Positions 31,577 through 64,000 of a stretch of 64,000 nt of DNA are shown here, in pieces. Each line of letters opens with the position of its first letter. The stretch's first letter is position 1. The DNA is taken from contig BSYQ01000009.1 in the NCBI GenBank assembly GCA_030272585.1, forward strand, positions 1,302,001 to 1,366,000, written 5' to 3'. The stretch is from Bryopsis sp. KO-2023. Lineage: Eukaryota > Chlorophyta > Ulvophyceae > Bryopsidales > Bryopsidaceae. The notes under the pieces were generated by a model. It saw nothing but the letters and a program-made list of their open reading frames with translations, was not told the DNA's origin and did not search any database. The position numbers were made by a program, and so were the translations under genes.

Positions 31577-31627
31577 TTGGGACTCAACTGCAGCCACGAC
31601 CGGCTGAACGACTGCATTCGAGCGCTC

Positions 31628-36967: not shown

Positions 36968-37040
36968 TGCCCCGGGCCAGAATCGAACTGGCGTCCCCCC
37001 TTATAACGAACGGGTGCGTGGCCAACAACGCAACCGGGGC
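36968..37040 (-). tRNA. tRNA-like gene, anticodon GUU by position (copy 1)
   Basis: The minus strand folds as a 73-nt cloverleaf. The acceptor stem GCCCCGG/CCGGGGC is perfect, the D stem is GCGT/ACGC, the T arm GCCAG-TTCGATT-CTGGC is perfect with a good B-box core, and the discriminator is A. A run CTTTTT follows within ten bases, a proper pol III terminator, and a TATA-like stretch lies about 80 bases upstream. The anticodon stem (CCCGT/AAGGG) has one mismatch. By position the anticodon is GUU (Asn), but residue 33 is C rather than the near-universal U, so decoding function is doubtful. An alternative register with UAU (Ile) needs a weaker stem. Confidence 0.6.
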
Positions 37041-37765
37041 AAGCTTCACGACCATCTGTGCCGTTGAAACCACGTATTGTCAATATTCATTAATAACTGT
37101 CAGCACACGTGTGTACAACAGTATATAATCGTGTCGGGCCAATGATAGTTCGATACGCAACAGAAACCTGCTCCAAAATCCGACCTCACTGTCAGGGTTA
37201 GGATTGACGCACAACGGTCGAACCCTTCTCACCACGTTTATTTTCAATAGAAGCTTTTTTTTGTGTGCGTTGGCGGCTTGGAGAACATGTTTTCAAGATG
37301 TTTGCACCAGCAAGAGCACCTGAGTTAGCCAATGGATCGATGCCCCCTGTGTCTGGCATTGTGTCCAACAATGGAAAAGAGGTCGATATGCAGATTTGAG
37401 CCCTAATTGTGTGTTTTTTTGTGACTCCACACCAACAGGTATTTTCTGTTTGTATTTCAGAAAGTCAAGGTGGCTTGTAAAAAGCATATTGGATGTTTTT
37501 TTCTGGGAACAACAAGGATCATTTTTTTTTTTGCTGCCATCGCTTTGGTGAGTTTTTTTTCTTTAGGTTACTAAGCGAAGTTTGATAGGGAAAATATGAT
37601 GGAAGAAAAGGAAAAAGACACCATTGTTTCCATTTTGGAGGGGGTTGGTCTCGAAATCAACCCCCAATTCTGAATTCAGAAATGAGACAAGGGGTCTTTG
37701 CTCTTTGCAAGGATTCTTGAAACCAGTTTTTTCATTTCATGATGGAGTGTTGATCGATTGTGTTG

Positions 37766-38967
37766 CAGCTGCATCATGCAGATGGTCCGTCAAATCGTTA
37801 TGTAGCACTGGAAGGAAGGATTTTCCCTCCGTCCCCTCACCACTTTACAATAGTCTATGTGCAGTTAACAGTCTTGGGAAAGAACAAGACTGCTTGGGCC
37901 AGCAGCACTCCTCAATTTCAATTGGTTTTTTTGTATGGAACACAATTGGCCACCAGTACCCATGACAAAAGCATTCTTTTCCATTGCATTTTTGGTTTGT
38001 TCTTAAATGGGGCTCACCAGCAAAAAGCATCCAAACTGTACATTATCCCCAGACTACTGGCTGCCTAATCAAATTTCCTCCCCCCTGGGCGCGCCTTTCT
38101 CCAATGGCCAGAAAAAAAAGTCAGCCACATCTAGATAAACTATCGCCTAAACATCACCGAACATATGTGCCAGGGACACATTGCAATTATCTGCATTTGA
38201 TATTGTGGACAGGAAGGCGTAATTATTCTGGAAGTTTTAATTTGTGTTTTTTCTTTCTTTTCATGCAAATGTAAACACGAATCGCACTTCTGAAGTACTA
38301 CTCCACCAAACAACAGAGGCCACTCAATGGCATCCAAACTGACTTACATAACAGAACAGACAACGACCATTGCACTCGTACAACTGATCTAAACCCATCC
38401 ACACTTTTTCTGACAATCCCCCAGACCCTCTTAATAGCACAAGTGTGTTTAACCACCAACACTGGTTCACGGACTTCTATTTTCTTTCTTTCCGCATTGA
38501 TATATATATATATATATCGTTGCTTGGGTGAGAAAAGTATGCGACCTGGAGTCGTGTTAGAACGCTGAAAAAAGCGGAGAAAAGACAGCACCCACAAAAA
38601 TAAACACAGAAGACAAGCAACAAGAATTGATTTATGAGCCACCCACACAAAACCAACAAGAAGATTGTGAGAATGACTTCACAGCAAAAAGATAACAACG
38701 AAAAAATTCGGCACACGCTATACAAGTAGAAAAACGAAAACGAGAAGACGGGCGCCCAAGCGAGACGCAGCTCAGTTCGTTTCGCCGTTTTTTTCTCGAT
38801 TCACTTTCCTACCAACGGCACAATAACCCCCACTCCTTGGGTTAATGACAATACCGAGTCTGCAGGGACTCAACCATCTCAACGCGCCCAGATTTTGAAA
38901 ACGCGATTAGTTCCCCCCATGATACCAAGCCAGATTCACATCTACATCTGGTAGCCAGAAGACCAGT
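37766..38967. other. 1.2 kb segment unique to second duplication unit
   Basis: No gene is supported. It contains an AT repeat near 38,500 and short frames without splice structure. It is absent from the equivalent junction of the first unit at about 36,530-36,550. Confidence 0.45.
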
Positions 38968-39420
38968 GAAAAACAAACATTGCTGAAAATAAAAAGAACA
39001 GCACAAAGCAAAAGTTGCCTACAGGAAATAAACATTCGACTTGAACCGGTGGGATGCCCAGCTTTGCAAGGCCTCCCAACGCCTTCAGATTTTTCGAAGC
39101 AAAAATAAGCCCAACAGAAACTCGAGTGAGGCCTCAACCTTTCCAGCACTCACTGCAAGCTTATTCATATCACTCATCTCACTGAACAAAGGGCACCAGA
39201 GGATATCCAACCTCAAGCCACTCATTTCTGTGTCAGCTCTTAAAAACCACTCTGGAAGTTCCTGTGCAATCCCGTCCCTGGAAGTAGATGACCGTTATGT
39301 TTTTCAGCAATTTATGGAATGAATGTGCTGCACTTTGAGCTCAACGAATCACTTTTGTCTTTTCTTGATGCTTTTGAGTTTGGCTGGTTGGGATGGGGAA
39401 AAAAGTGGTGTTAAAAAGAA

Positions 39421-39493
39421 TGCCCCGGGCCAGAATCGAACTGGCGTCCCCCCTTATAACGAACGGGTGCGTGGCCAGCAACGCAACCGGGGC
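39421..39493 (-). tRNA. tRNA-like gene, anticodon GUU by position (copy 2)
   Basis: This is the duplicate of the gene at 36,968-37,040 and differs within the cloverleaf by one base in the D loop. The same perfect acceptor and T stems, the anticodon-stem mismatch, C at position 33 and the downstream T run are all present. The single difference suggests a young duplication, constraint on the whole sequence, or conversion. Confidence 0.6.
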
Positions 39494-39750
39494 AGGCTTC
39501 ACGACCAATTGTGCCGTTGAAACCAGGTATTCTCAATATTCATTAATAACTGTCAGCACGTGTGTACACCAGTATATAATCATGTCGGGCCAATGATCCG
39601 ACCTCACGGTCAGGGTTAGGATTGACGCACAACGGTCGAACCCTACTCACCACGTTCATTTTCAATAGAAGCTTCACTTCATGTTTTTTTTGTGTGTGTG
39701 TTGGCGGCTTAAAGCCAAGCTTGGGGTACATGTTTTCAAGATGTTTGCTG

Positions 39751-42234: not shown

Positions 42235-45200
42235 TCACAAATGATCAAGCACAATTCTGTTGGCCACCATTCCGCTAATGATTTCTCCAAATCTGGTGAT
42301 CAGCCCATCCATGGCATTGCACCCAGCAGCGATGTTGGCAAAGACACTTGAGAGCTCTACTCCATTTATGGCGGTATGGTGCTTGCCATTGGCAGCTCGC
42401 GCCATTTGATGCAGCAGCGCATGTTGTGCACCAGATCCAAACCCAACAGTATGGACCTGGAGTCCGTGGATACTACGCTTCCTGTATATTCGCCGCATGT
42501 GAGCCAATATTGGCCCCACACCATTTCTGTCATTGTCTTCACCATCTGACATGAAAACCAGCAATGGGGTATGTTGTGGATATGAGAGCAGATGCTTCTG
42601 TGCTGCTTGTAGTGCAGGTGTGAAGCAAGTCCCCCCTCCTTGTTGGGTGGAGAGTCTACGTTGGCTTCTGATGGACTGCCCTTTGAATATCACCCGAGGG
42701 GAGGAAGCAAATTGAATTGCCGTCACGAGATCCTCATTTCCCTGATCGTTCAACCGACGCTGGATGAAAAGATTGTAAGCGTTCACAAGATCCTGCCAGG
42801 GTCGACCATCCATAGATGGCGATTCATCCAAGCAAAACACGAAGTGGAACCCTTTCATGCCAACAGGTACCTGTCACCATGACAAAAAATCATCAAAATG
42901 AAATCATGCACATGCAACAATGAAATATCAAAAAAGGGGACAAGGTTTCAGCAAAAGATGATAGGTCAACAGAGGATAGACCTTCTCGGGTGTGCACATG
43001 GCATGAAAAACATGAGAAGTACCTTGGAGGGATCAAAAAGGTCGGTGGTCTTCAACTCCCTGCCAATTTTCTGGTCATCATAGAATTTTCTGAACTGGGC
43101 TTCCATCTTTGCTGTTGCGTGTTGCTTGATACGGCAAAACATCAACTCCAAATCCTTATCTTTCAGCTCTTTCATCACCGTCTTTACTGTCAGGCCTTTT
43201 GGATCACCTTGACAAAATCTGCGCAAACACAGGAGAAGCGCTCACCAAGATTGAGAAAGGAAAAAACCATCAAAGCCACTTTCAATCAACTACACATATT
43301 TAACTGATTTTCAACTGTTTTTTTTTTTTTCTTCAGATGAGCAATTTGAATGGCATTTTTCTATCACCTGTCTCCAGGGTCATCGTTGCAGTCAATGCCG
43401 TGGGCTGGGGCGTCTGTGATGAGCACAACAAATTTCACCCTCCCTTCCCAATCCCCCAATTGTGTAGCCGTCATCAAAGCCCCCAAAACATCTTCTGGTC
43501 CATCTTGTCCTCCTTTTGCTTCCAATCCCTGCAAAAAGTTCCGCAACTGTTGTGCGTTTCTGGTAAATTGTAGCACTGCGATATGGTCATCATCTCCATG
43601 GTCTTTGTAGGCCACCATCGCAAAACGTAATTCGACTTTTATATCTGGGTGCTCCTGATTGATCTTCGGAATGATCCCTCCAGTAATTGCCTGCAGAATT
43701 ATTACACAGATGTCTTATTTCAGTCGTTGAACAGCAAGCATCATGAACAGCAAGCATCACCTACTACTGAACACCCTATCTAGCACAGGTCACCTGAATC
43801 TGCGATTTGGCTGCTTCTATCCATGGTCCCATTGATCCGGTTGAATCCATAACGAAGCATATGTCCACGGTCATAACTGCTGGCCTGTTGCCTGCCTGAA
43901 GTTTGACGCTCCTTTCACCCCTCAGCTTCTCCAGTAGATCTGGGAAAACCTTCCTGTGTTGTCTCAGAATTTCTTCCACACTCTCCCCCGCATCTCTGGC
44001 CAGAGGAGCAAACTGCGACCAATCCTCGCAATCATCCAGCACTTTCCACTGAAGACCACTCCCAGGGGTGGAGCCCTGCTCATGGTATGCTTTGAGGGCA
44101 TCAGGAATTGCACAAGGAAGAACAGCAGTCAGCCACTTGTTGTAGCAGTGTGGAACAAAAAACTTGTCAAATCCAACCCCGATCGCTAAAACCTCCACTG
44201 CTTCTTCTTCGGCCCTCTCCAAAGCTCGTGCCAGCCTGAGCCCACTCGTACCAAACCCATCCGAGATGATAAAAATCTTCCTAGGACCCTTAGGATTTGT
44301 CGCTTGGAAAATGCTCAAGGCACACTCGATGGCGTCTGCGTCCAAACTGGCATATTCTTGATCATGTCGGAGATTGCTCAGCAAGGCAGCAATGCATGCT
44401 CCATCCCAAGGAGTGTCTGGCAACTTGACAACGTACAGACCCGAACCAAACAGCACCACTGTGAAGTTTTCAATATCCATGGACAAGAGGCCCTCCACGA
44501 ACATGACCAACGCTTCAACAGAGCACTGTGCAAGATGCCCCCTCATGGACATCGAGATATCCACCACAAGGGTCACCGCATACTGCCTCTTGCCACCAGA
44601 TTTCTTGGCGGAGAAGTACTTTTTGTAGTTAAATTTTGTCGTCACAGCTTTGATCAATCCCTGTAGGTGCAACGATGTCCCCCGCTCGCTGGCTTTGTTC
44701 CTTGTGTACACATTCACAGGCAGACACTCCTCCAGAGCTTCCACCATCGAATCAATCTGGCCGGCTACCCTGCTAGCAGCCTCGCCCCACATATTCTGAG
44801 CCTTGTTCACCACACTGACAATCACCTCATCGAAATACAGAGCTGAGTAGGAATCGTGGATCTTGTCAATTGCACCTTCCACCAGTCCAATGTCCCTCTC
44901 TGCTTGAGGAAGATCCTGAGCTTGATCCAAGAAGGGGATGTCTTCGTTGCCATTGCCCACCTGGAACATGGAAGCCTGGTGTGTGCCTCCAGCACCCTCC
45001 TCTTTTCCTTTTTGGTATCGTAAATTACCAACTGAATTCAAAATCCTGACATCAGCCTTCTCAGTGATACGACATGGTAGCAAGGATGGTCCAACTCGCT
45101 TTTCGCCTCTGTCTTTTGGTGCTGCGGCCTGTTTCAGCATTTTATCGAACTGCTGGATGATCAGGCCTGCGAGCAAGAAGGGCAAATTGTCCACCAAAGC

Positions 45201-45815
45201 TACGTCCAGGACCTCGTAGCATGAGGCAACCCTGTCCCAGAGTCTTTCGATCTGCTCCATGACTGGTTCCTGCATCCCATCTTTGAGATTCAACACTACC
45301 AGGTCCAGATCCTTCTCCTTTGTGACGGCTATGTAATCAGCCGGGTCTTTTTCTTGGGTGAGCCCATCGACAATCATCAGCATGATTCTGTGTCGACTCC
45401 CTTTTTCATCCTCTGAGATGGGGTGGGGCCAAACCTTTTCTGCAACGTTTGCTACCGCAGAGGCCGGGTGTGTTGCTTCATCGTAGGAAAAAGATTCCAG
45501 TATCTGTTGGCCCAAACAATTGGAAAATGTCTGCCCAAAAGTCTTTAACATCCTCTGGCTCTTTTTTCCACCAAACCGAGCGATCGCAAAAGGGCATTCC
45601 AGACGCCTGAATGTCTCGATGGCCAGCACCAGTGCTTCTGCAGCTTGATTAGACTGAATGACAGAAGACAAAACACCACCACCATGGCCTGTTTAAAAAC
45701 AACCCCCCAAAGATGCCACCAATTTCATGGAGCAAGAGGGTTAACACCAATATAATTCAACATACCTTTGTTATCATAGATCCTGAGTTGTCCACAAGCA
45801 AACACCACTCGAAAA
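42235..45815 (-). other. Four C-terminal VWA domains of the giant protein
   Basis: VWA1 (about 45,815-45,280) has the MIDAS loop LLVDNSGSM, split by an intron. VWA2 (about 44,585-44,120) has LVVDISMSM and IISDGFG. VWA3 (about 43,880-43,020) has FVMDSTGSM, MVAYKDHGD, GGQDGPEDVLGAL and ITDAPAHG, the hallmark set of the alpha-kinase VwkA-type VWA. VWA4 (about 42,850-42,300) has FCLDESPSM, GGGTCFTPAL and MSDGEDND. All four keep the DxSxS-type metal-binding residues, so all could bind Mg2+ and a carboxylate ligand. The chain ends shortly after VWA4, with no kinase domain. Confidence 0.85.
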
Positions 45816-48800
45816 TGTGGTTCTCAGCAGTCTTCTGATAGAACTGCTCCTGCTGGCTACGAAAATCGTTCAACACAATTCTGCAGTATTTCATCAAAGG
45901 CTTGGACTCCACCAGCAGCTGGTATGTCCACTTCTCATGTTGATCATCAGCTTTCATCTCAAGGGGATCTTCGATGAGAGTCAATCCAGTATCTCGCCTG
46001 CCAGAAGTATCGTTCATTTTTAATCATCCAAACTTTTGTTCAAAACTTTTTTGAACAAAAAAAAACAGATAGGGAGGGGCTGGAGGGCCAGGCCCCCTCA
46101 AAAAAAATTTCTGGCACCCCCTAAATTAGTGAGCAAGCAAAAAAAACCCTAGCAATCTACAGCATCATGCCTCAACCAAATTGTTTTTTAAAAATAAAAA
46201 TAAATGGGACCCCCCCAAAAATATTAACGCACCCTCTTTTCTGAAATCCTGGTTGTGTCTATCTTTGCCAGGATGCTTTGACCAATACAATTTTTGGCAG
46301 AACTAGGTTGTATTCATACCTGAGAACACGAGTATCCTTGTAGATCTTGGAAAAATCACACTTCTTGAGTTGATCCACCGTCAAGCAAGGATTCATCTTG
46401 AAATTGGCCACAGCAGTGATCATGTCTTCCTCCTCTGGGGTGGCTCCACATATTTCTGCACCCTCTGAGAAATCGAGGGGCGCATCCTCTCCCAGTCGGG
46501 GCCTAGCTTTCTTTGCTTTGCCTGCCTGGGCACGATGAACAGCCACGGACAAACTCGTGGATCCTGATCCTGATCCCACTGAAGGTACAGACATCTTCCT
46601 GGGCGATGTTTGTGAAGCCTTCGAGCTCTCTGATGCGCCAGATGATGATGCTCCGATTGGACCAGAGAGTATGTTGAAGTCTACTTTGTCAATCGCGATA
46701 GTTTGATTCAGGATGGATGCCTTGGGGGGATCCAGTGCAATTCCAAGACCAATTTCATCCCCTTGACCACCGCTCAAGATCACAGTGCGCAGATTCTGAG
46801 CATAGCGATCCCCGCTTGGGCTTCCGCTATACTTCAGCTTTTCTATCTGATCTGAAACGAGATCACATGCGCCAGTGCTATAGTTTTCTGTGTCCCCAAC
46901 CCTCCTGGATTGTGACGGCATCTGGAAGTCAAAATTCGTGTGTAGTTTTGCAACTGGGCTGGACTGCAGGACCCCAATTGCACCCTGCACGGTTTCGTTG
47001 AGATCGTCCCGTGGAATGAAGCTCAGCAGCCGGAGAATCTCACTGCAGGCCGTTTTGACCTCTGCCTGTCCGCCCTGATGTCCAGTTGTCATCCACATCC
47101 GGAAACACTCCATTGCCATGCAAATCTTGACTCCAAGATGAACGATAGTGGGTTCCAGTGTTGGGTCAGACACTTTGTGACCAGAGCATGTCATCTGGCA
47201 AGCCTGCTGGAAGATGGTCATCCACTCTTCTGCAGCATATTTTGTCTCAGCAAGTGCATTCAGAACGCGGCTTGGAAGCTTGACATCGATTACGATCCTT
47301 GATGGGATCTGCCGGACGACGGCAAGCGCCCTCTCTACAAAAATCCCTATTTTCTCCAGGTTTCGAACGATGGACTCCTCAACTGTATCATAGTTGCTGG
47401 TTTCCTCAGCACCACTGTTCAAGTCAGAGTCTTGATCGTCCAGATCATCAATCTGAAGCTCGGACTCAGCTGCCTCGCATGTTTGTGGGAATGAATGCCA
47501 GCATTCCCCAGGATCATTCTTCTTGACTTTTTCTGGTGGGGCCTTGATGGTCGGGGGTGCAGCATTCTGGTGGTGCTCAGCTGCAGGCTCCTCCTGAATT
47601 TCTGGTGGTGTAAATGGAATCACCATATGTTGGGATTCTTGTGATTTGATTCCTCCATAAACCTTCCCCAATGCCAGCAACAGACCCATTTTTGATGCTC
47701 TCCATCCAAGACTGGAGCGTTCCCTGAACCGAAATATACCCACATTTGAACCTCCCATAAAATCTCTGTGTTTGGGCAAAAGATTTAGATTTTCAAGAGA
47801 ACAACTAAAAAACTGACCCACGTCACTCATTCACACAATCACAGGATTGAGGCTCCTTCGACCAAAAACAAAACGACTTGTGGGAAAGCCTCAAAATTTG
47901 ACGAACCTCGACAGCATGCATCCCACGTATGCCCAGTACACCTCCAGTGCTGCATTTTGGTGCAGACCTCTTGCTCTTGAGTCTGCATTGTCAAGAGAGG
48001 CAATCGCTCTTATGAACTGTTGCAGAAAAGCGATGCCCTCCAGTCCACCATTCTGATTCCATGTCTCTATGGCTTCATGTGCTCCATGCAGTATCTTGTA
48101 AACAATTGTCACCTGCTTTTTCCGCTCCTGGAATATGATAAAAAGGGATCAATCAACGCAAAACAAGGCGAGCAGATGCAATCAAACCTACTTCTTGTAC
48201 TGCTCTTAAGACTTACTTTGCTTAATCTGGAAAGCATGGGACTGTCCAGTTGCCAGTAGTCATTCTGGAAAGAACATCGAATTGCAGTAGCAGCCTGCTT
48301 GACAGCTTCACTGTCCTCATTGCTGGCGCAGAAACGAGCCAGCCCGCATATAATTCTCGAGGAACTCCCCCAGTAATACTCCTCAGCCGAGTCCGCCTCC
48401 AGGATGCCTACAACAATATTATACCAATTGATTGATCTTCACAGAAAAATCTATAAGATCATGTGTTTCCCACATACATAAAAAAAGACACAACAGAATT
48501 TGAATGCATTATCTTTCTTTCTCTTTTTTCGTGGAGGGGAGGGGGCATGAAGCCAAACAAACAATAGCATTGTTGTCATTTTGCTTTCAGTTGGGCGAAG
48601 GGAGACCTGATATGTCGTTCTCAACATCCAGGAGTTGGAGCGATTGACCATCAAGCTGCACCAAGGAACGAGCTATCAATCCAACACTCTTGGGACTGGG
48701 GGTTTGGTGAACTTGAAACTCATCTGATGCAATCTCTTGTCCCCTTCCTTTCAGAAACATCGCAACCCTGACCACCCTGACGCAAACATGGATGTTTTTT

Positions 48801-51800
48801 AAATACCAACTTTACAACTTTCAAAATAAAAATTATCGTGCTCAAGAAAAATTCCAATGGGAATGAGTAGTCATCCAGGCAGCTGGCCAGCTATGTCATG
48901 GCATACCTGAGAATTGTTTTGAACCTGCTCCCAGAGGCTTGTGAAACGAGGTCTTGAAGAATATATGAGACGTCCATCAGAGCAGAGCCAATTTCTTCTT
49001 GAATGGTCTCAGGGATTGCAACCAAAAAGACCGAAATCAACCCTCGAATGATCCTGGAGATTGAAATCAACTGGTCATTTTTTTTGTTTGGGTGCTTTCA
49101 ACCACAGAACAAAAGAAAAACACTGCATTGCCACAAAATTGCTGGAACTTCCATCAACAAACAGCAGCCTGTAAGACTCACCCATCAACTGTGCTGCTGT
49201 AGACTTCTCCGTACAAATCAGTGAGCGCATGAATCAGACGTGGAGCCCTTGTCTCATCCATGTTTGAAACCTTTCGTAAAAATGCAATTTCTTGTGACCT
49301 TCCGAACTGTGTATTTAGCCAGGAATAGGAGTAGGAGTATTTTGGAAACCGTTCCACAATCGCTAAAGTTGCTTTCCAAATCTTCATTGCGTGTTCCCAC
49401 CCCACGGTTGTCCTGATGAGTTGTTGAACCGCCTCATCCACTGCTTCGATAGCACGCTCGCTTGCCATATAAGAATAGCCCCAAGGTGGTGCTAACAATT
49501 TTCTTGCTTTTTGGGTCTGAAATCCCAACTCTTGTATAGCATCCAGCACAGAATTTCTTGCCGATCCGTCCACAGCTTTGACAAGGGCTTTGAAAATCTT
49601 TGTCAAGGCTTCGTTGTCCGCACAGTTTCTCTCCAAAATTCGCAGCATCCCTGAAAGCCTCCTGTCATAATCCCTAGAGGATAAGTCCAGCACGAGTCGT
49701 TGGCATCCATGACTGGACAAAGCAAATTCCAGAAATTCTGTCTGGACCCATTCGCCTTCAGCTCCGGAAGCAACACTCAACAACTTCGATGCGATATCAT
49801 TCTCTGACTCTGTACGAATCAAACCCCGTAATAAATCAGGCACCTTGCAGTTCCCATCGTCCAATTGTCTGATGCAGTCTTTCACAACATCCAGGGGAGA
49901 ATTTTCAAACCCCTCAAGGGTGTCCTGTACCATTCCCAAAGCTTTCATCAAATGGAAACGATCACCATCGTGCCTCTGTATCTCAGACCAGAAGTGGTCG
50001 GCAGCAGTCTGAAACTTAGTGGCAATAGTGCTATCAGGAAGACATTCCTTCACACAAGCACAAGCCCCAATCCAGCTACTGTCACTCTCCGAAGCAATCA
50101 ACAGAGCACGATAGACTGGCTGAAAGCCATCTGTTATTGCTCCAGTGGCAATATGTATGTCGTCCAAGCACGTTGAGTCATCACTCCCTCTTTGCAAAAT
50201 GGAATCGATGTAACTTTTGACTTTGTCTCTTTTGAATCTGCATCTCTCTCTCCTCCCTAAGTACAGCTTTAGATTCTCTGCAGCGCTGATGCTGGTATCC
50301 TCCAGAGCAAAGCCTTGCAGTTGTTCCAGAATCTCATGCTGTGTATCGCTGCTGGAGTTGGCATCACAGAGATCGTACGCCAAAATGGCTGACAGTATGA
50401 GATGGGGCAGGGAGTCTTCATGTTCTCTCACAAACTCAAGAACAATGTCCAAACTCAGTGATCCACAGTGCACCCAAGCGGGGTCAAATCTCTTCACGTG
50501 GTTGTGCATCGCCAATGCCAAACATTGGGAATGCTCTCCGACATACCCCACTATGCATATCTTGTGACAGTCACCTCCACTCGGATCGAAAGACGTTCGA
50601 AAGTCGTTGGTTGAAGAAAGCACCACATGCTCTTCAAACCAGCCTGGAGATTCTGGTGCTGTGAACTGGATACAAATACGTTGACCTGACGTACTACCCC
50701 TCTTGACAATGAAATCATTTTCTCTCTGATTTCTTGGGGCCAGGCATGTAACTTGGACATCCTCTCCTGAGGCAGCCTTTCCCACGTTAGAGATGTGCAG
50801 ATTTGATGCACCTATGTTCAAAACTTCAATCTCCACCCTTCCAAATTCACCATGCCCCAGGAGGCGACTGCAAACAAATGTGCTGGAGCCCTTGATCTGC
50901 ATGCAAGGCGCCATCATCTTGAAATGCACTTCAAACGGCAAACACTTCCTCTCTTCTGTGAAAAGCTCGATCTGTGATTTTGTCCCGGTCCTCATGCACG
51001 TGGGATCAACCCAGATTTTCATTTTTACTTCGGTATTTCCCCTGGGCTTGACTTGTATGATGTCCATGTCAAACTCAATATCCTTGCTCTCAGGGGGAAA
51101 CACTTTGGCTGCGACTGCTCCATGATTTGCGATATTCACATTCCCTTCCAGTTGGATTTTGCCATGGCGTTGAAGTAATGTCCCATCTGGAATCTTAACA
51201 TCGACTGGCCTCACAGCAACGTTTGCAACTCCCCAGCTCCCCTGAGAGGTGACCACAGATCAAAAGCATGTAAAATCTTGTAAACAAACAGGTGGGGGTA
51301 GTGAATGAGGTGAACGACAAAGATATGAAAAAGATTGTTTCCAACATACCTTCAGCGTAAATGTCTGCTTCTTGCATCCAATGACCTTCAAATCGACGTG
51401 AAACTCTTGGGACCCCCGTTTTTCCTCAAGAGATATCAACACCTCAGTCTCCATGCTGGGATGAATATCTCCTGCCCAGCCTTCCATGAATTTCAGCCCA
51501 CCGTCTCCTGATGTGAATTCGTATTGGACTGGAACCTTCCCAGAATTCTTCATTTTAAAGCATGTTCTCGACAACTGGCCCGATTTCACTGCCGGCAGCT
51601 CAATGATCGACAGTGGCCTGACCCGTTTTCCACTCTGTTCGAAAAGTTGGAAGGATGGCTTAACAATGCTAACAGTAGAGTGGATGGTCTTCAAATTCTG
51701 GCTGGAGTTCACTCCAACAATGACATCACAGCAAGCATCTCCCTCGAAGTCAGCTGGATTCAATTTCAGCTCAAAAACCTGCTCTTCACCGCCACCAAGC

Positions 51801-54800
51801 ACACATCTTGTTGGCTTGACCTCCCAGTGGCAAAGAGATTCTCCCTGGATCAGCGATTTGATCAGAAGGCTTGCACCAGTTCTGTTGCGCAGCTTAAACT
51901 GTTTTGTCCGAGGCCCCAAACGAGCTCCAACTCGACCGAAATCAATCTCCTCATGATCAAACTCAACGCAAAGCCTTTCAACTTTAGCCTTCACGCTCAG
52001 AAAGCCATTCGAACAGGTGTGGCCATAATCTACCACCCAATCTCTCTTCATCTTCCCCAACTTCCGTAAATCCAGCGAACAGCTAAGGTCCATGGTAACA
52101 TTTGGCAAGATCCGGGCTTGCAAAGGAAAAATCGTGAAGCCAGAGGCATTTTCATTGGATTTGCTCCTCAACTTTAGATCCACGATCTCTGATGTCTTGT
52201 TTACCACCTTGATGGTTCTCACCAATTGCCATGATTGGCTGCAATCCCCTTCTTCGATGTGAATGATGGTTCCAAAGTCAATCACCAGCTTTGATGGTGC
52301 AGAAGATATCCCCCCTGAGTCTTCGGCAAGCAAAATCTGTCCAAGCTCGGTGAGCTGACATGCCGAGAGGCACTGAGAGCCGAGATCTCCAAGGTGTTTC
52401 ACTGATTCCTGAAGTTTCCCAATCTTTGACAGAGTTGCCACTATGTTTTCACGATAACCAGCAATGCCCTTGATGGAGTCCCCAATCCCTTTCATGCTGT
52501 GTATCAATCTGAGTGCACCCGGGTTCACGGCCGTGACTCTTGAGATCAAATCTCTGATCTTTGTATTCATCTTGTGGAACGCCTTCGAATCCTCAGCTGA
52601 GGAAATTTTGAATGCCCCACGCATGAGCTGAAGGAGAAACAGACGGAAAGTCTCTGTCAATATGCTTGCACCCAGGACCCCTGCTTTTTCCGCAAACTCC
52701 TTACACTGACGAAAGGTTTCTTTCATCTCTGGAGTCCAAATCATGGAGATGGTTTGTTCCTCCTGAGAGCTCCCCAGGTGAACAGGAAAAGGGTGGGGAC
52801 GGACATCCCCCACACACTGTTTGCATGCTTCTGTTGCTGATGCAAGTGCGATTGTGCGATCAATGATATCTTGTGGGAAATCATCCCTGCTGTGTTGCAG
52901 CTGTTTTGTGGTATCAAAAAGCTGTTTGGAACAATCAACAAGATTGGAAGCGCTTTCCACATATTTCTTAACCGCACAGGTGTGCCTCATTTCCAAGAAT
53001 TCCTTGTTGTCACGCGCTTCTTTCTCTGACATTTTCAACAGCTCTCGTGTTTCTATCAGCTCCACCGACTCTTCTGGCTCTTCAGGCTTGCTGACAGGAT
53101 TCAATGCCCTGAATTTTTGCAAATCTGTGGTGAGTTTTCCAAGCTTGTTGTCAAACTCTTCCTTCAGTTGGTCGATGCTTGTCATTCCTGGCCCACCAGA
53201 GAACGAACCATGCCCGTCTGGCATGCAGCTGGCAACTCCTTGATCACAGTGCTGCAGAATCTCAACATGGGAGTCCTTGTCAGCTGATATATTTCCTTTG
53301 CTGATTGGACAAATGCATCCAACTTCAATCTCGTATTGCAGATCCCACGGTTCAAATTCGGGACTTCTGGATACAACTCTGTTGAAGCACGGCCACATAT
53401 CCAAAGTGAAGGGAGAACTCAATGCTCCGTTTTCAAACTGAAACGTCACATGCAGTCGCACATCTTGCAGGGAATCTACCTGGAAAAAGCAACCAGGCTT
53501 CGATCTATTCAAGATGTTGCTAGGACAGAAAAGGTTGGAGCCCTTTGCGCAAGTCACCCTGATTTTGGACACACAACTGAATCCAAAGGGTCGATCCAAT
53601 CTCCAAATTCGGAACACGAAAGTATTTGGCCTACGTTCAAGACCATAACTTTCTAGACAGATGGTAGGATTTCTGTCAATCAACCATTTGTAGTCACGAA
53701 GCAATTTTCGTGCTCGATCATGGCAACACACAACATCCCCTTCTTCCCCAATCCGGCAACAAAGTTTCAGAATTTCCTCCAGGCAAACCCACAGATCTGA
53801 CCTAATTTTCTCCTGCTTTTCATGTTCAGTCTTTTGATTCTGGAAATGTTTCAGCATCCCAACCACTCCACCGATAGCCTTCTGCACCAGCCACTTTCGT
53901 TTTTCCTTCCTCGCCGAAATCAATTCCTGGCCCTGATTATTCCACTTATCACCCATCAGCAAGACTTTTCTTCTGAACTCATCGAGCTCTCGAAAACGCC
54001 AATCAATGGCAGCACCATGAATCCTCTCCTCCCTGTACTGGAAAAGCTCAAGAACACCAGTATGAAGGACCTGTATGATATTCGGACAGACAACACCCAT
54101 GGGACTGTCACGGACAAGGACCTCCACCTTGCTCCTCATCACCTTCAGGGATTCTTCTGCTACATTGTGATACCACTCAACAACTGTGTGAGAATCAATA
54201 ATCTCGCTTGCACCCTTTGCAAGTTTGGTGATAATCTCCCCAACACCGGGTACCCCATTCTTCAACGAAATTGCAGTTTCCTGCAAACGTCGGATCAAGG
54301 CACCGTCTACCCCGTGCGACAGCAAAACAGATCCGGATTTATCAGCGTCAATTAGGCTGGCAATGATGAGCTCCTTCAGAACCTGTGGTAAGCCCTCACT
54401 TCCAGAAGACCCATCCGGATGTCCATCAGTGCTGCTGCTGAGGTGTGGCAAATCAGACACTGGCTCAATCCTTCCCAGTGAAGCCATGAAATCCTGAGAA
54501 ATACGACACAGGTGGCCTGCCACCAGTTCCCCCTTCAGAGCATGGAACCTCATCATGACTTGATCAAGGAAACCTACAATGTTGGGACGATGTGACGTGA
54601 GCTCCTTGCACATGTGCCGGAGGTGCTTTTCCAAAGCAGATACATCTTTCAAGCCAGCCACACAATCCTCCACACTTCCATCAAACTGTCTTGCCAACAC
54701 ACGTGTCCCAGCCTCCAGCACTCCACATATTGGTTCAATCTCTGGCTGAAACACTCCCTTGCGAAGCAGCTTTTCCCCCAGGGCTACAAGAGCTGCGAGC

Positions 54801-57800
54801 ATGTGCTCCGCATACACAGCCGCAGGTAAAAATCCTTCCCCAATGCCTTTGATTGCATCATTGATATCCGAGACAACTTGAAGAGGGCTGCTTGGGTATT
54901 CCAACAGAGCATGGTGAGCTTGGTAGGTCACACTTTCAGCCACACTGCGCAAATCCTCTTGCATGGTCTCCACCAGCGTTACCACCCCTTCTTCGTCCAA
55001 GTCAGCTTCCACCTTGAGGCCACGATTTTTGAGCAATGTTTTCAGCTCGTTCGCATAGTTCCCCATGGGCTGCCTGAGATCGAGGTAGCTACAATGCGCC
55101 CAAGTGAATTTCAGGATGAACATGCGGGTGAAGTCCAGAGAAGCTTTGCATCCAGGATATTCGCAGAGGCGGGTATCCAAGGAATTTGCCAAGTGCCTTT
55201 CAACTTCCAGCAACCGACCAGCCACACAAATGAATTCCTCCCTGCTGTTGTCTTCCCTGGTGATGTGGATCATGGAGTTTCCACAAGACAGAAGCTCGTC
55301 AGACAGCCCATTTGCTTGCGAGGTGACATGATGCAAATTTTCTATTGCAGCTTGGACACTATGTTCTCCACTCCTGGAATGATGCAAACTCATCTTCACT
55401 TTTTTCAAGTGCTCAGTGGCTCTCACAGCAACTGTGGCTGCCATCTTGAATACACCCGCCACAAACAGAGCTCCTCTCCGGAAAGGATCCATAGGATTCA
55501 TTTTGGAACATGCATCCAACACCTTCTGAAATCTGTCTTCCAACGCCACGAGGATATCTCTGTACAAATGGCCACTCTCCTCCTCCTTGACCAGAGATGT
55601 GATATTGGCCAATCCCTCAACGATGCCTTTCACATTGACACTGTAACAATCCACTGCTGCATCTGCGGTCAAATCGATCTCCTCAACCAAACTTTCCCAG
55701 TCCATGTCTGACTTCTGTGTTCCCTGCACTTCGCTGAGAAATGACAGCCCAGTTTTAAAAAGCAAACCCAGCTGACAGTAAACAGCACTTTTTGCTTTTT
55801 TTTGCTCTGTTCTTCTCGATATGGTGCATTGCTTCTTCAGGTCAAGTAAAATTTCAGTCAGTCGCTTTTTCTTCAACTCCAGGTCTTTCAGCTCCTTTTC
55901 ATAAAAATCTTTTTGTAAAGAAAGGCCTTCCCTCCTCCTGCTCGGTGTCAACCTGCTCGATCCAAAATCTCTTTCACCAAACACAAATATCTCATTGTAA
56001 CCTCCCTTGATATCTTGATCAACCTGTTCAAGAATCTTCTCCTGCCTCAAAATCATTCCATCAAGAGTCTCAACATCTTTCTGACGCTTGGCAAGTTCCT
56101 GCTCCTCCCGCACCAAGTATGCAAGCCGTATGTGAGACTCAAAGGAATCGCCCAGGAAGCTTCTCCCAACAATCGAAGCCATGCTCATCAAGGTCACAGC
56201 GGAATGAACCTGAATGAAGGATTCAGGGAATAGTGCTGCAAGTCCCAAACCATCCGACGAGATCATCCCAAGGAAATCTCTGCAGCTCCCTCGCATTGCC
56301 TCACACATGGTTGACTCTCTTGAGGTATCAAAAACAGAAACTTCCTTCGGGCCTTCCTTGTAGAAATATGAACCAACACCCAAACTCCCACTCGGGATAT
56401 TACTCAGTTCTGAGACACGAGACACAGTGTCAGTAAACCGTGAGTTCACTTGCTTCTCCAGCTCAGAGTGTTCAGCAAAAGCTTTGGTATTCCAGGGAAA
56501 CAGTACAGCTACGGAATCAGACAGGCGCAGCTTTGGTGGCTCCAATGAGATCGGCTTGTTCAATCTTCCGGTGCATCCATTGAGTTCCGATTGCATCGCC
56601 ACCTCCAACTCCTGCAGATGTCGGAGCACACTCCGCATAGTCACCAGGTTGGGAGAAAGATCGACCTTGAGGTTTCTCAAGGGGTCCAGAAGGCTCTTCA
56701 ATCCCTCATGGTTACAAACCAGAGAGGTTTCGCTGTCCAGAAGAAAATTCACCCTCCACGCTGAAAACTCTCGCAACATCTTTGTCAAAATGGTGCCCCA
56801 CTCAGATCCCGACTCGATTTTTGTATGCATGATGTCCACCAGAAGCTGAAATGGCAAGACACTAGACCAAGAGCCCAGGTCAGGGACTTGCATGGATCTG
56901 GAGTTATACAGATCGATGCACTCTGATATCGTCTGATTCCATAAGGCTTCCCGAACTGAGGCTCGGACGTACTTCAACAGGTCATTTTTGCCACCCTTGC
57001 TCAGACCCTCTGGCATCGCTTCTCTTTCAAGAGATGCTACGGATACCAATCCCTGTCTCATTTTCCACATCTCCTGTTCCGTTGCTCTTGTCCCTAATTT
57101 ATGAACCTCGAGCTCCTTGTCGGAAATATTGATGTCAGTAGCATTGAAATTGTGATCCAACTTCAGACCAGCTGCAAGAGGATCCTGGCTTTTGAGAGAT
57201 TCTCCATACTCCTCGACATATTTTTTCAGATTGTTGAAGTCCACCCTGTGCTTCACGAGATCTATACTGGACAGAGACGATTCTCCCAAAGACCGCAGCT
57301 CAACCAGTTTTTGCAGAATCCTCTTCACAAGGCCCAGGTTCACAGGGTTTGCTTGCTGGGCATATTTCAGCAGTACCATGTACTTCTCGCTCAACTGGTC
57401 CAGCTCATCGTTCTGTGCTGACCCGGTGCCTTCAGAAACATCTTGTTCGGTAGACTGGATTTCAGGGGCTGTTCTTTCCTCATCATCAAGATCAATCTTG
57501 GAAGAGATGGTATTATTGATCCCCGCAATATCGCTGATGACCATCTGTAGTCCATTGTCTTCGAGAAAATCAGAAGGTATCTGGAGAGTCTCCACAATCT
57601 CGTCAAATTGCTTTTTGCGCTCATCAATCACGTAGGGAGGAATGGCCGACACAATTCTCAGCCCCATTCCACATCCTTCTTCCATCACCGCAAGAGCATC
57701 TTTGAGAAGAGACCCACAGAAGCTGAGAGGCTTTGCCAGGTTTTCCCAGTACATCTCCACATTCCCTTCCAGGGTGGTGAGTGTATACACCATGAGCATC

Positions 57801-60800
57801 TGTTGCACCTTCACAACGAGTCCGATCATATCGCGACAGGCCCTGTACATTATTTTGTTCTCTCCTGAACGTGGCACCATTTTCTCCAATACATCCAAAA
57901 CCTGGAAGCCCAGAGTCTGTCTCATCTTGGTCATCTCTGTGGATAACCAGTACAACTTTTCTGGTTGGTTCTCTCTTGAATCTGCGTACTGAATCTTGAA
58001 CAGATTAAGCTCTGCATCCAGCTCATCTTCAGCCTCCACCAAGGCTCTCAAAGAGAACACGGGGTCAAGATTTGCGAAGAAACCGGTCGGTTGTCCAGCT
58101 TCCATGGAAAAATCCGGCACTTCTGACAGTTTCCCCAGAACTTCAACAAGCTCGTCTGCTTTGGTGCGATTCGTCCCTTGCTTTTTGGGCATTGCCTTCT
58201 GGTACAGACAGTGAATCTTTCTCATTTGGTCACGGATGGCCTGATGCTCCACTGGAGCTCCTTGCAATCTCTCCACAAGAGTCACCAAACAAGAAAAAGC
58301 TGCCTGGCCCAAATTACCGATCGGCTTGCCGAATTCCTCCGAGCAAATCAACATTCTTTCCTCAAAATTGACATCGTCCTTGAAAGACAACTGATCAAGC
58401 CACTCACAGACCCAGGATTGCTGCCTCTCTGACTTTGCAGTGCAGAAATGGGTAATCAAAACAGAGGACTTTCCTGAGTCCAGCCTCGTTCTCTCCACAA
58501 GCACAAGAGAGAGTGCATAGCACCCGTTTGCATCAGAGACCAGAAATAAAGCTTCTGAGCTGCCTCTCTTTTTCAAATTTACGGAGGAACACTCCTGAGA
58601 TATTGAGATGATGCGAGCCTCTGGTCGATCAAAGTTCAGGTCCTCAACAAAATACAATCCAATCCAGAGCGCAGCAAGTTGACTGCGATGGATTGCTGAG
58701 CTGGTGCTTGTGATTAGCTCGCAAAACGAACCATTCAAACAGGCATTCCAATCCAGGGCCCAAGATTGTCCTCCTCGTTTCCACATAGCCCGGGCCTCAT
58801 TCAGGAACTCTTGGTGCTGGTGAATTTCTTCAATGCGCTCGCAGCAGAACAAAAATCTGGCACTTTGACCCTCCAAGCCTTTCTGGAGAAGAGCTTTCAG
58901 TGTAGACGCTCTTTCCTGATGCCTTCTGATCTCTTCATTCAATTCCCGTCTCAATTGCTCCAGGTCTTGTCCGTTTGTTCCGGACTCTGCACTTGTTTCT
59001 GGCGACGATGACCCTTCATCAGGTTTTTGGTCACAGTCAGCTTCGCTCTCCTTGAAAAGAAGCCTAGCTTGAAGTTCCCCGACTTTCGGATTATTGCACA
59101 GTTGAATGAATCCTTGAACGACAGGCCTCAGCTCTTTTTTGACTTCAGACACACAAAAGGCCACCTCCATCTTCAGCATTTTTGATACAAAGGCAGGATC
59201 AACATCGGGTTCGCTGGCCAGAGAGACTGGAATCGCAAGCCCACTTTCCCAGGCCACGGCAATGTGCTGGAGCACCACCTGATACCTCTTCACCACAATC
59301 GGATCTATCCGAATCACCCCCATCAGCTTTTCCAGAACCATTGACAACGTCTGCTTTGAACTAATTATGGGCTTTGCAAGCTCGCTGTTGAGCGCGTACA
59401 GCGCTGCCTCCTCTTCAAAATCAATCAGAGAATCCTCAAATGCTGTCTTGGCTTTTTCAAAGCCATCGTGCTCCAGCCAGGCAAAATGCTGCAGGCTCGT
59501 CTTCGCATGCAGCAGCTGACCACAGGCAAAAATGCCTGTTTTCAGCAAAGACAATGCAGGCTTGCTCTTGAGATCAGTGAAAGCAGGGCTCCGTAAGACT
59601 GCCAGGAATGATTCAGCCACCCAGACAATCTGCCTTAAGAAGTTAGAGCGGTCATTATAATCCAGAAAAGAAGTCCCTGCCACGAAATCGGTGATGCCTT
59701 TCTGGATTCTGGAGCTGATAGCATCCGTTCTGGTCTTCAGTCCAGGGATTTCAGCGTCAGAAACAACTTTCAAGACGCTGTGTCTCCTTATGACTTCTCG
59801 GACATTCCCCATGTTCTTAGCCAGACTTATTTCAGAGAAAGCAAGCTCCAGTTCAGTCTTCTCTGAAGGGTGCAGTCTGGCCAATACCCGGCACAGGTGC
59901 GAGATCACCAGATCATTGCATCGGGAGAAATCCACTGAACAATACAAGGAATTTGTCGCAATTTTCATCAACATGAATTCCAGAGAGCGCATGTGATTTG
60001 ACAACTCGTGAATGGAGCGCTCCAACGCACTCAGATGGCTGAGTTCGGACGAAATCTTGTAAAACTCTGCTGCCGGGGTGCCTGTAAGATCCTTACAAAT
60101 GCTCTCCAGCACTTTTGAGAGTTTATCAGCCCCATCCTGAATGCCTGAGGTGTACGTTCGCCACAGTGCCCAAGCAACGCTTGAAAGAAGAGGCTTTCCC
60201 TTCCTCACCCGGCGCAAGGCCACCTGTGTAGCCTGAAGCAAAAACCAACCCAACATTATCCTGTGCACATCTGACTCCCTCCCCCCAAGCATCTTTTGAG
60301 CTATGTCTGGTATCTGGTACACTTGTGAGACTTGTAAGTGCAGGTCAAACCCCCATGCTTTCACCAAGCGTGAAAACAAAAATACCCATTGTACAATATG
60401 GCTAGAATCCTACTTTTTTACCTGCTTCAAGTTTCTGAAGTTGATGCTCAGACCATTGGACGGCGTAATTCGCCTCTTATCCAACATGTCTTTTACAGCT
60501 GCATGAAATTGAAGCATCATGGATGCAGCGATCCCTCCACCAGGACAGTCACAGAATTTTGCCGACACAATTGGCAGGAGATCATGTCCTGTGCAATTTT
60601 CTGGGGTAAGGTCAGCATCCATTCCTGGAAGCTGAACAGTGATCATTCTGTTCAGGATGGCTACCGAAAGCTTGTTGGTGTTGGGCCTCTTGGGATCTGC
60701 AGTAGCAAAGATTCTTGTCTCGCTGTCGATGCCACCTCCAGTTCTTGATAAGCATTCACCTGCATGGGCATAAATTTCCTATTGGATGCACTCAAATTCC

Positions 60801-63800
60801 CCCAAATATGCAAGAAAGATTTTATCTGGGTATGTACTGCTTACCGTCTGCATGCTCGTAAAGAACCAAGACAGGTTCCTCCTCAAGCAGCGAATTGAGA
60901 CGCTCTATGACTTCAGTGGGTGCACTGTTTATGTTGTCCAGCAGTATGTACTTCCCCAGCTTCAGAGCTCTGACCAGCTCCGATTCAACGAAAATGAAAC
61001 CAATATTGTCCTCCCCAACCTCCACACATTCTTCCAAATGAACCAAGGTATAGTTCAGACTCTTGAGCATCACGGCTACAAGGCTACGCACTTCGAGAGG
61101 CATTCCCTCATCATTGAATGTTTCGCTCAAAACCATCTTCAGGTGCCCCAGCGCTTCGATTCCTTGCTCTGCAATGTCCTGCAAAGACATAAAATCATTC
61201 ATTATTCAAAAGTGGTCTCCTGAAGCGTGCCCTCATTGAACAGATTGCACTCTAGCAGTATCTAATGTTGCAATCACGTCGTTGGAAGAACTGCTCAGGC
61301 CTACTGGATATTGGAGCATCAATGGCATAAAAAGCATGTCTTTTTCAGGGTGTGGGGTAGGTGGTTGTACCTTCTGTGACAACCCCGCAGAAACCGCACT
61401 TTCACCCTGGAGTGTCAAGGAGTATGCTTTCCTCAAGACTTCGATAAACCTGCTTCTGCCCTCGTCGTTTTGAAGTGGGACAACGTACAAGAGCAGGTGC
61501 TTCGATATATCATCAATCAGTGATGTTGCTTCTTCATTCAATTGGAGCTGGAGTGTGTTTTCAGTGAGAGGCATCCACTGACCTGCACACACATCAATAT
61601 GGCGTTGAGGACCCTCACTGTTGAAAATTCAGACAAAAACTTCCAGAGTCAGGACGCACCAATCAAATCTGCTGTCTCAAAATTCTGGTGAAAAGAAATT
61701 GTCAGGAGTTGGCGACCACCCAGCCGGGCAAGCTCCCTCACGAGTGCAGTCTTCTTGGAGCAAGTGCCACCCTGATTGCAAAAGAAAAAATTGTATAAAT
61801 TAGTGCCAGTCCACAGGGCCATGTCTGATATGAGCTGCAACACTCAAGAAAATTGAACCCACCTGAAGCAGCACAGTCCTCTTGCTTTGACATCCCATCG
61901 CAAGAACCTCCAGTTCTTTCACTGTGTCGGGGGAATGAACCAAACCCCCATCGCTTGTCTGACGAAACGTATCCTTCTTTTTGGCCAAATAAACAGAACC
62001 AATCCTCACACAACCAGGCACAGTGCTATCAACTGTAGAAGCACACCCCTCCTCCATCGCCGGCCTCGGCAAATGCTTGTCAATGATTGCCTGCGCAGCT
62101 TGCAGATCTGAGAAACCACAAAATCGGTGCTTGTACACGAGCTCCACCGCTCTCCTCATAACAATTTGGCTGACATCCATCAAGCGCTCCATGTCATCCC
62201 CCAGGGTCCCATCTTCTGCTTCAACCGGAGACAGCTGGTAGTGCGCCATCTGATTCTTGATATTGCCTTCAACAATGTCCCTCACTTTCGTGAGGTCCCT
62301 CAAGTTGAACTCATACTGACCTCCAGATTTCCCAATTTCTTTCCTCGATACGCACCCCCGGATTTCCTTGTGCAGATTGAACACCTTGTTCAGCGACTCG
62401 TCCTTGATGTACCCCCGTTTCACCATCTCACAAAACAGGCTGCTCATTATTTCACGCAGCTCCTCGTCGCTGTGCTGCTCCAAGTGCACCACCATGAACA
62501 AATTCAAGAACGACCTTGAGAGCCTGGATCGACCTCCCCCCAGACTGGCAGGATTCATCGTGGCAAAAACGTACAGCCCATCCAAGGGAATGACCTGGTC
62601 TGTCCCTGGCACGTGAAACTGGCCTGATCTTCTTTCCAAGAGAGGAACCAGGACCTCCAAGACTTCGGGGGGTGCGAGATTGATCTCATCCAGCAGAACC
62701 CATTTTCGGGACTTCAGGGCGTCCACCAGTTTTCCATCGTGCCACTCGAAAACCCTTTTGTTTTTCGAAAATCTGGGCATTACAGCGCCCAGAAGGTGCT
62801 GCACGCTGGTATCTTTGGAGAGGTTGATCCGCACACATTCTGCTCCAAGCAGGCTTGCAACTTGACCAACCACAGCAGTTTTCCCTGGAAATCAAATCGA
62901 AAAACCCTTTCAGCACCTGATAGCATGAGTTGAGAATAAAAAGGATTGAATTCATCAACTGCCACACATTTTCATCTTTCACCACAGATCATCCCCAAGA
63001 ACAGAAAGACCTACCGATTCCAGGTGGACCCTCCAGGAGAGGAGCGCTCCCAGCAGATATTGCAGCAAATATTCTCGCCACATTCATCAAAAAAGTGGGG
63101 GTCGCAGTACACTGAAGTCTTTCGTGCAAGGTATCATCTGTCAAATCTGGTGTAGGTGCCATCAGCTTGCCTCCAATCCCAGCACACGTCAATTCAATGC
63201 CATGGACCAAGTCGTCTTTTTCGGAAACCTTTACTCGAAATGGGGCTGTGTCCTTTTTAGCCAGCTTTCCTTCAATATCCAAAATTGACAGCATGTCGCA
63301 ATCCAGGCTCAAATTTTCCCACCATTGCCCTGCAAGCTCCTGTTCGGTTTCAGATGTCAAATCATTGAGGTAGAAGAACTTTGCCCCAAGGAGTAGCCTG
63401 TGATCGACATGCATGTCTGTAACTTCACTGCAAATAAAATCCAGCCAACGAAATAGCTGGCGGACGTTGCTGCATGGGCTCAGCCTGGGATCTTCCAGCA
63501 ACATCCTTCTCAAATGCATGATTTGACTTGCGATGGTATCAGCCAGCGCAGCCTCACTACCATCCAACCTTCTTTTCAGCTCCAGACTGAGAACTTGTTG
63601 GAGCTCTTCCACACCGTATTCTGCAAAGGAAATCGTGGTGAACCGACTCTTGGTGGCCGCACTGAGATTGGGCCGGCGCTTGGAGGCGTCCATATGCATG
63701 GTTGCTAGAATCTGCAATGATTCCTTGGGCACGCTCAATTCCAATGATTTCGTGATGCCAGAACTTAACCCTGTCACATCCTCTGGAAGTGTGAATGTAG

Positions 63801-64000
63801 GGTCAGGCTCCAGCAAGCTGTTCAGGCGCTCCGTCACAGACTGTGGGCAGGCATCGTAATCTTCAATCACCAGGATTTGGCCCATGCTCACAGCTCGTGC
63901 AACAGGTCCATCAATGAATACAAAAAAAGGATCCCCATTTGATGATGGGGCTCTTTCGATCGCTGCCCAAACATTCTTGAACCGTTGCAGAAGTCTCTGC
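42235..64000 (-). CDS. Giant midasin-like AAA+ / ASH / 4x VWA protein, 5' end outside window
   Basis: About 18 exons read from the right edge to a TGA at 42,235, roughly 6,500 residues, still open at the edge. Exon junctions carry GT-AG signals and mostly agree in phase, so I treat this as one gene. Order: parts of at least three AAA+ modules of the midasin/dynein-related class (64,000-60,410); a helical region of about 2,700 residues (60,370-52,320), most of it in one 9.1-kb exon; ASH/HYDIN-like beta-sandwich repeats (52,320-50,530); more helical exons (50,530-46,320), one with a Ser/Gly-rich low-complexity tract; then four VWA domains (45,815-42,235). Midasin (Mdn1) has AAA ring, long linker and one C-terminal MIDAS VWA, and strips factors from pre-60S ribosomes. 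This gene shares that plan but adds ASH repeats and three VWAs. The junction near 60,380-60,410 is not resolved in phase. A true Mdn1 ortholog is the main alternative. Confidence 0.8.
46029..46250. repeat. Palindromic, low-complexity intron segment
   Basis: Within an intron of the giant gene, a 12-base perfect inverted repeat (TTTTGTTCAAAA, three-base loop, complement) is followed by a GGCCAGGCCCCCTC stretch and two C-then-A runs. It could be a small decayed inverted-repeat element, but no flanking duplication was identified. Confidence 0.3.
50530..52320 (-). other. ASH/HYDIN-like beta-sandwich repeats of the giant protein
   Basis: Four or five consecutive segments of about 100 residues show the ASH pattern: an IDFG or EIDFGRVG strand, then a FKLRN or FKMKN strand with Asn, and a closing F-x-L-x-V strand. 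Examples are KLVIDFGTIIHIEEGD, DHEEIDFGRVGARLGP with KLRNRTGASLLIKS, and FKMKNSGKVPVQYEF. ASH domains are common in ciliary, centrosomal and Golgi proteins. I know of none in midasin. Confidence 0.6.
60410..64000 (-). other. AAA+ modules of the giant protein
   Basis: The rightmost exon begins inside a module whose Walker B region reads ILVIEDYDACPQSVTERLNSL. The next module is canonical: Walker A LLEGPPGIGKT, split by an intron after GIG, Walker B KWVLLDEINLAPPEVLEVL, and sensor FATMNPASLGGGRSRL, all very close to midasin. The third has a degenerate Walker A (GGTCSKKT) but a recognisable Walker B-like KYILLDNINSAPTEVIERL and sensor FATADPKR, so it may bind ATP poorly or not at all. Unequal modules are typical of midasin and dynein rings. 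Confidence 0.8.

Follow-up and report, generated by a model that had tools for sequence, protein, structure and literature searches.

The window analyzed here is a 64,000-nucleotide stretch of contig BSYQ01000009.1 of the alga Bryopsis sp. KO-2023 (positions 1,302,001 to 1,366,000 of the forward strand), and its minus strand carries a very long predicted gene that encodes AAA+ modules of the midasin class, a long linker with immunoglobulin-like (Ig) domains and four von Willebrand factor A (VWA) domains. Midasin (Mdn1/Rea1) is known as an essential motor of ribosome assembly that has six AAA modules in one chain and one grip, a metal ion-dependent adhesion site (MIDAS) in its C-terminal VWA domain; it works on pre-60S ribosomes by way of the ubiquitin-like (UBL) domains of Rsa4 and Ytm1. 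Our own dynamic-programming gene model, which takes codon usage and splice-site scores as inputs, predicts a gene that runs from 63999 to 42235 (the final base of its stop codon) with 18 exons and 6,486 codons within the window. The gene is open at its 5' end, its start codon and AAA1-AAA3 falling outside the window, past base 64000. Its parts, from the 5' to the 3' end of the gene, are as follows:

42235-63999, minus strand: the gene (dynamic-programming model, leave-one-out codon scores and shuffle control of the bridge between its halves)
63015-63999, minus strand: AAA4, partial (Pfam AAA_5, 36.2 bits; alignment to Mdn1 AAA4-AAA5; motif positions)
61863-63030, minus strand: AAA5 (116 bits to Mdn1 AAA5; alignment A1; Pfam AAA_5, 83.5 bits when spliced)
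60422-61771, minus strand: AAA6 (Pfam AAA_5, 59.5 bits when spliced; position and DN Walker B)
45811-60313, minus strand: linker of ~4,434 residues from AAA6 to VWA1 (gene model and motif positions)
50528-52306, minus strand: HYDIN/ASH-type Ig region within the linker (PF22544, 38.7 bits, two stretches)
45237-45810, minus strand: VWA1 (PF00092, 20.8 bits, E 4.8e-4, below the cut-off of 23.8)
44142-44834, minus strand: VWA2, midasin-like (Pfam VWA, 27.5 bits, above the cut-off; midasin MIDAS matches)
43095-43865, minus strand: VWA3 (PF25106 VWA_4, 47.2 bits, E 2.4e-12)
42373-42849, minus strand: VWA4 (PF00092, 47.8 bits, E 2.5e-12)

Long minus-strand frames joined by GT-AG introns give this part of the window a eukaryotic anatomy. 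When codon usage was trained on the remaining exons, all 18 exons scored positive in frame (8.3 to 737) and were free of internal stops, and the other two frames of these exons reached at most 0.5 each. Such leave-one-out scores are not independent of the gene model, which favours open frames, and a shuffle control was therefore added that covers only the bridge between the AAA and VWA halves. Across this bridge (49.17-47.74 kb, from the AAA-Ig half to the VWA half) the best path scored 91.7 with its exons excluded from training, and none of 200 dinucleotide shuffles attained this value (mean 47.9, standard deviation 6.0, maximum 68.4). Since the bridge outscores every shuffle, one gene for the AAA and VWA halves is the best model of the predicted structure, in agreement with a preliminary description of the locus that had placed both parts in one gene. 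Weak splice junctions are found at the donors of exons 4, 10 and 12 and at the acceptor of exon 7. The longest modelled intron, intron 13 (45998-46319, minus strand, 322 bases), contains runs of T and G and precedes VWA1.

Among proteins of solved structure, Mdn1 is by far the closest to the AAA part. When residues 1-1032 are compared with the PDB set, midasins come first (E 7e-119 for all stretches together, top single stretch 151 bits), followed by the next protein at 8e-9, which we take to be a MoxR-like ATPase, then by chelatase and NorQ subunits, and by dyneins from 1.5e-3. Pfam AAA_5 is found in three pieces, one for each module listed above, and a single alignment to Mdn1 spans AAA4 through AAA5 (residues 24-528). 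Among the modules of yeast Mdn1, AAA5 of the window gene scores 116 bits to AAA5, 92 bits to AAA3 and 52 bits to AAA1; it carries the motifs GPPGIGKT (split by an intron), VLLDEIN and FATMNP, as well as the lid motif SGGQYEFNLRD, of which EFNLRD is common to Mdn1 AAA5. Thus the midasin-class AAA+ modules named in the preliminary description are borne out, and among the AAA modules in the window AAA5 alone shows both Walker motifs. AAA4 retains KSRF, which in our own reading resembles an arginine finger, and has a degenerate Walker B (VIEDYD, LLDEIS in yeast); in AAA5, the arginine of NRF is replaced by leucine (NLF). Because VIEDYD replaces LLDEIS in AAA4 and NLF replaces NRF in AAA5, the ATP site of AAA4 is, as judged from these motifs, lost in both halves, the reading of NRF as the finger being our own.

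The third module has a degenerate Walker A (GGTCSKKT), a Walker B (ILLDNIN) that recalls yeast AAA6 (LILDNAN) and a retained arginine-finger-like LNRM. We assign it to AAA6 because of its position, its DN Walker B and the lack of any Pfam AAA match downstream of it in the pieces scanned. The midasin identity and order of the modules are therefore seen for AAA4-AAA6, AAA6 being recognized by position and Walker B and not by bits. Passages of PMC6286127 and PMC11603028 describe AAA2-AAA5 of Rea1 as functional, AAA1 and AAA6 as devoid of a Walker B, and AAA5 as seemingly the main ATP site. This catalytic pattern of midasin (AAA2-AAA5 catalytic) is not found in the window gene, as AAA4 has lost its Walker B and AAA5 the arginine of NRF.

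Sequence divergence from the fungal Mdn1s is pronounced. AAA5 is identical to yeast at 58 of 148 positions (39%, HMMER alignment), a MAFFT alignment gives 38% (yeast) and 34% (S. pombe), and yeast and S. pombe agree with each other at 99 of 150 positions (66%). In the same manner, the VWA2 stretch is 23-28% identical to fungal Mdn1, as compared with 57-69% among three fungi, and retains 15 of the 42 columns that are invariant in them.

Behind AAA6 the preliminary description had seen a linker of more than 2,700 residues; the long linker stands, its length was understated, and it carries Ig domains. Exon 7 by itself (8,964 bases) contributes 2,988 linker residues, and ~4,960 residues separate the Walker B of AAA6 from the midasin-like MIDAS, versus ~2,540 in yeast, where the positions are approximate. 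The linker of midasin has stem, middle and top parts; exon 7, the only part of the linker so compared here, did not match Mdn1 at E<=1, in a comparison for which the detectability of Mdn1 linkers is uncalibrated. Rea1 has an acidic region of ~600 residues, as stated in a passage of PMC11603028, and in midasin such a region lies between linker and MIDAS. No acidic tract occurs in the 6,486 residues of the window gene, where aspartate and glutamate together peak at 24% per 100 residues and 17% per 300. The Ig domains of the linker, of the HYDIN/CFAP65 type, lie at ~residues 3702-4258, with the clearest one at 51976-51641; taken singly the segments are weaker (best 24.3 bits, below the cut-off), and two of the five are without an ASH-type match.

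All four VWA domains display D-x-[ST]-x-S and a late aspartate at the motif positions, which upholds the four MIDAS-containing VWAs of the preliminary description, with the addition that only VWA2 matches the VWA of midasin. The MIDAS set is plain in full for VWA4 (DESPSM, GGGT and SDG), which lies inside the last exon and is followed by ~46 residues and the stop, and it is less plain in VWA1-VWA3. VWA1 (MIDAS DNSGSM, late aspartate in VDG) is interrupted by an intron, and no chain of the PDB set matched it at E<=10. VWA2 (MIDAS DISMSM, SDG) is preceded by helices and a loop region, GTSLHLQGLIKAVTTKF..KRQY (44681-44580). VWA3 (MIDAS DSTGSM, late aspartate in TDAPAHG) has two introns inside the domain and GGQDG at the place of the VWA4 GGGT. 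No significant mutual similarity was found among VWA1-VWA4 in six pairwise comparisons (blastp E at least 0.08, hhalign probability at most 2.8), and hence the four are not recent copies of each other. A recent tandem duplication of one VWA is ruled out by the same comparisons.

The resemblance of VWA2 to midasin was seen in three PDB chains, which we take to be those of Chaetomium (6qt8), S. pombe (6or5) and yeast (6i27). For the MIDAS stretch alone the E-values were 1.1e-3 (6qt8), 0.012 (6or5) and 0.036 (6i27), and for the whole chains 8.6e-4, 1e-5 and 1.2e-3, respectively. The three alignments are in register and begin in the helices ahead of the domain, and a search with the whole VWA region returned the same Chaetomium match (E 3.4e-3). 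Among the four domains, then, only VWA2 appears to resemble the midasin VWA, and it does so weakly. Its alignment to midasin is unreliable at the MIDAS element III hairpin (linked to UBL ligands), and an AlphaFold2 model of VWA2 made without relatives has a mean pLDDT (predicted local distance difference test) of 38.9.

In passages of PMC6624252, the MIDAS element II loop is described as the tether between the ring and the MIDAS domain and as the carrier of a highly conserved proline-tyrosine nuclear localization signal (PY-NLS); the legend of the loop alignment names fungi, Arabidopsis, Dictyostelium, mouse and human. Replacement of the loop is reported to be lethal in yeast, which needs it even with another NLS supplied. 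The residues listed there for the Chaetomium PY-NLS (K4753, K4754, P4757 and Y4758) fit the sequence KKIIPY by their spacing, and at this place the window gene reads QGLIKA, with none of the four key residues kept (Q, G, K and A stand instead; both mappings are our own). Moreover, the PY-NLS pattern [RKH]x2-5PY does not occur anywhere in the 6,486 residues. The ring-docking PY-NLS loop and the acidic region that characterize midasin are thus missing, and in place of its single C-terminal MIDAS VWA the gene has a midasin-like one (VWA2) among four. Because the MIDAS element II loop with its PY-NLS is lost, we consider it unlikely that this protein would pass through the canonical nuclear Rea1 cycle.

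With midasin, the window gene has in common the order AAA4-AAA5-AAA6, the AAA5 Walker motifs, the DN Walker B of AAA6, the long linker after AAA6 and a single midasin-like MIDAS VWA together with the helices ahead of it. Midasin has one VWA, whereas this gene has four, two of which follow the midasin-like VWA2; the gene also has Ig domains in the linker, and it has lost the acidic tract, the MIDAS loop/PY-NLS signature and the AAA4 site. These three losses, together with a divergence that far exceeds the one among fungal Mdn1s, make us lean towards the view that the gene is a diverged midasin paralogue and not the housekeeping Mdn1. The paralogous machine suggested by the preliminary description is, on these same grounds, the better reading, albeit not a proven one.

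The gene could instead be the organism's only Mdn1, strongly diverged in this lineage and still active in assembling 60S subunits, but equipped with additional VWAs, Ig domains and another nuclear import signal. The colinear AAA modules, the presence of a midasin-like VWA and a DN Walker B in AAA6 that matches yeast would all be in keeping with such a protein, but yeast cannot do without the loop that is lost here, and for more than nuclear import (again in passages of PMC6624252), the acidic tract is absent, the AAA4 site is lost and the divergence is far above that between fungi, and a sole Mdn1 therefore seems to us rather unlikely, though well worth keeping in mind. Several observations nonetheless weigh against a separate paralogue with the job that we propose for it below. 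The AAA evidence extends from AAA4 (partial) to AAA6, as AAA1-AAA3 lie beyond base 64000, and by bits the third AAA module ranks Mdn1 AAA4 (yeast) or AAA2 (S. pombe) above AAA6. The match of VWA2 to midasin is weak for each stretch, and the whole-chain value of 1e-5 for S. pombe includes a second, linker stretch that is probably a chance match. The Mdn1 comparators are all fungal, with two to three sequences behind the identities; the HYDIN/ASH matches are modest and are the sole basis for a ciliary placement; and no relative with the AAA-linker-four-VWA architecture was found in the viral and prokaryotic contigs, collections that are not eukaryotic.

A different objection concerns the unity of the gene, as the locus may hold two neighbours, i.e., a midasin-like AAA-Ig gene that ends at ~49.2 or 47.9 kb and a multi-VWA gene that starts from ~47.8 kb. 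Three features would suit such a pair: the donor of exon 8 overlaps with an in-frame stop, the long open reading frame (ORF) starts with an ATG at 47830, and exon 12 has a weak donor (GTTCGT). The four bridging exons, however, have compatible frames and outscore all 200 shuffles, and the midasin-like VWA has the strand and the downstream place expected for one midasin-derived gene, and we hold a split into two genes to be very improbable. Similarly, the degenerate motifs of AAA4 and AAA6 might betray a decaying pseudogene, or an assembly that joins unrelated pieces, yet the 18 modelled exons lack internal stops and are coherent in codon usage, and intact motifs remain in AAA5 (Walker) and in each of the four VWAs (DxSxS type). 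We give this last scenario scarcely any credence.

As to what a diverged midasin paralogue of this kind might do, the cycle of Rea1 offers a guide, for passages of PMC6286127 and PMC11603028 relate that, as ATP is used, its linker comes to engage the ring and force is passed to a docked VWA. By analogy, ATP use at AAA5 of the window gene would swing the long linker against the ring, and the force would be handed to a docked VWA. VWA2 and the added VWAs could each grip an acidic ligand residue through Mg2+, in which case the pull might act on several ligands or on several sites within one assembly. The HYDIN/ASH-type domains may hold the machine at some cytoskeletal or ciliary structure, and the loss of the PY-NLS loop would remove the protein from the known nuclear-import route of Rea1 and from the pre-60S cycle. 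Perhaps, then, its job lies outside ribosome assembly and consists of pulling several VWA-bound ligands, possibly at a cytoskeletal or ciliary site. Going further, we put forward as a tentative idea, which we ourselves hold to be somewhat doubtful, that the gene could represent a separate class of giant, single-chain six-AAA mechanoenzymes beside dynein and midasin, a midasin paralogue released from ribosome assembly, anchored by HYDIN/ASH domains and using four different MIDAS grips to pull several ligands in the cytoplasm or at the ciliary base. If true, a paralogue with four unlike grips and no docking loop would mean that the pulling machine has been reused for other cargo, and would amount to a natural experiment that separates the parts of midasin needed to produce force from those needed for ribosomes.

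Dynein heavy chain is a six-AAA, single-chain relative from the same clade. Its likeness to the window gene is limited to a weak match at AAA5, far below that of Mdn1 (E 1.5e-3 vs 7e-119), and dyneins are described without VWA association in a passage of PMC7159879. A dynein-type ring as the closest relative is ruled out by the same two E-values.

Bacterial MoxR-VWA operons also set an AAA_5 ATPase beside a VWA gene. They came to light when alignment A1 was used to scan prokaryotic contigs, where 8 of 32 stretches were confirmed, in Verrucomicrobia, Akkermansia or Chthoniobacter; two of these eight loci (L007 and L008) are MoxR-VWA operons by Pfam, the other six being listed by their ORFs. The AAA_5 ATPases of these two loci are 29-30% identical to the window AAA5 over 191-201 residues and score 62 and 58.5 bits; with yeast Mdn1 AAA5, a fragment of 150 residues already reaches 87 bits. 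Unlike the window gene, the operons consist of separate short genes, with one AAA_5 and one VWA protein each. In both loci (L007:6990-12462 and L008:7014-12444) the genes form a triplet that encodes a ~737-residue protein, the AAA_5 ATPase and the VWA protein.

In viral contigs, a scan with the single AAA5 protein had 3 of 9 stretches confirmed (L001-L003, 28-33% identity), one with the single VWA1 protein found none, and one with alignment A1 had none of 36 stretches confirmed. In the open-licence PMC literature, no midasin paralogue with several VWAs was named among the matches listed, and no paper dealt with midasin together with hydin.

The remainder of the window holds several unrelated features. 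A glycosyl hydrolase family 9 (GH9) domain (E 4.5e-132) is encoded at 9335-12727 on the plus strand, in a gene with hydrophobic stretches visible by eye; the frame upstream of it looks glycosyltransferase-like by eye only and has no such Pfam match. On the minus strand are a PhyH domain exon (16001-16429, 107 bits), pieces of C2 (82 bits) and PRT_C (94 bits) at 18960-24767 that recall the MCTP proteins of plants, and a group 1 glycosyltransferase (25636-27225, 30 bits) that appears ALG1-like by eye. In our reading, the GH9, PhyH, MCTP-like and glycosyltransferase neighbours would point to the green lineage. A plus-strand region at 31556-33738 is expansin-like by eye; Pfam matched neither of the two frames scanned. 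Finally, two local duplications with a spacing of ~2.4-2.5 kb are present at 5112-8978 and 36610-39674, the latter of which contains two tRNA-Asn genes.

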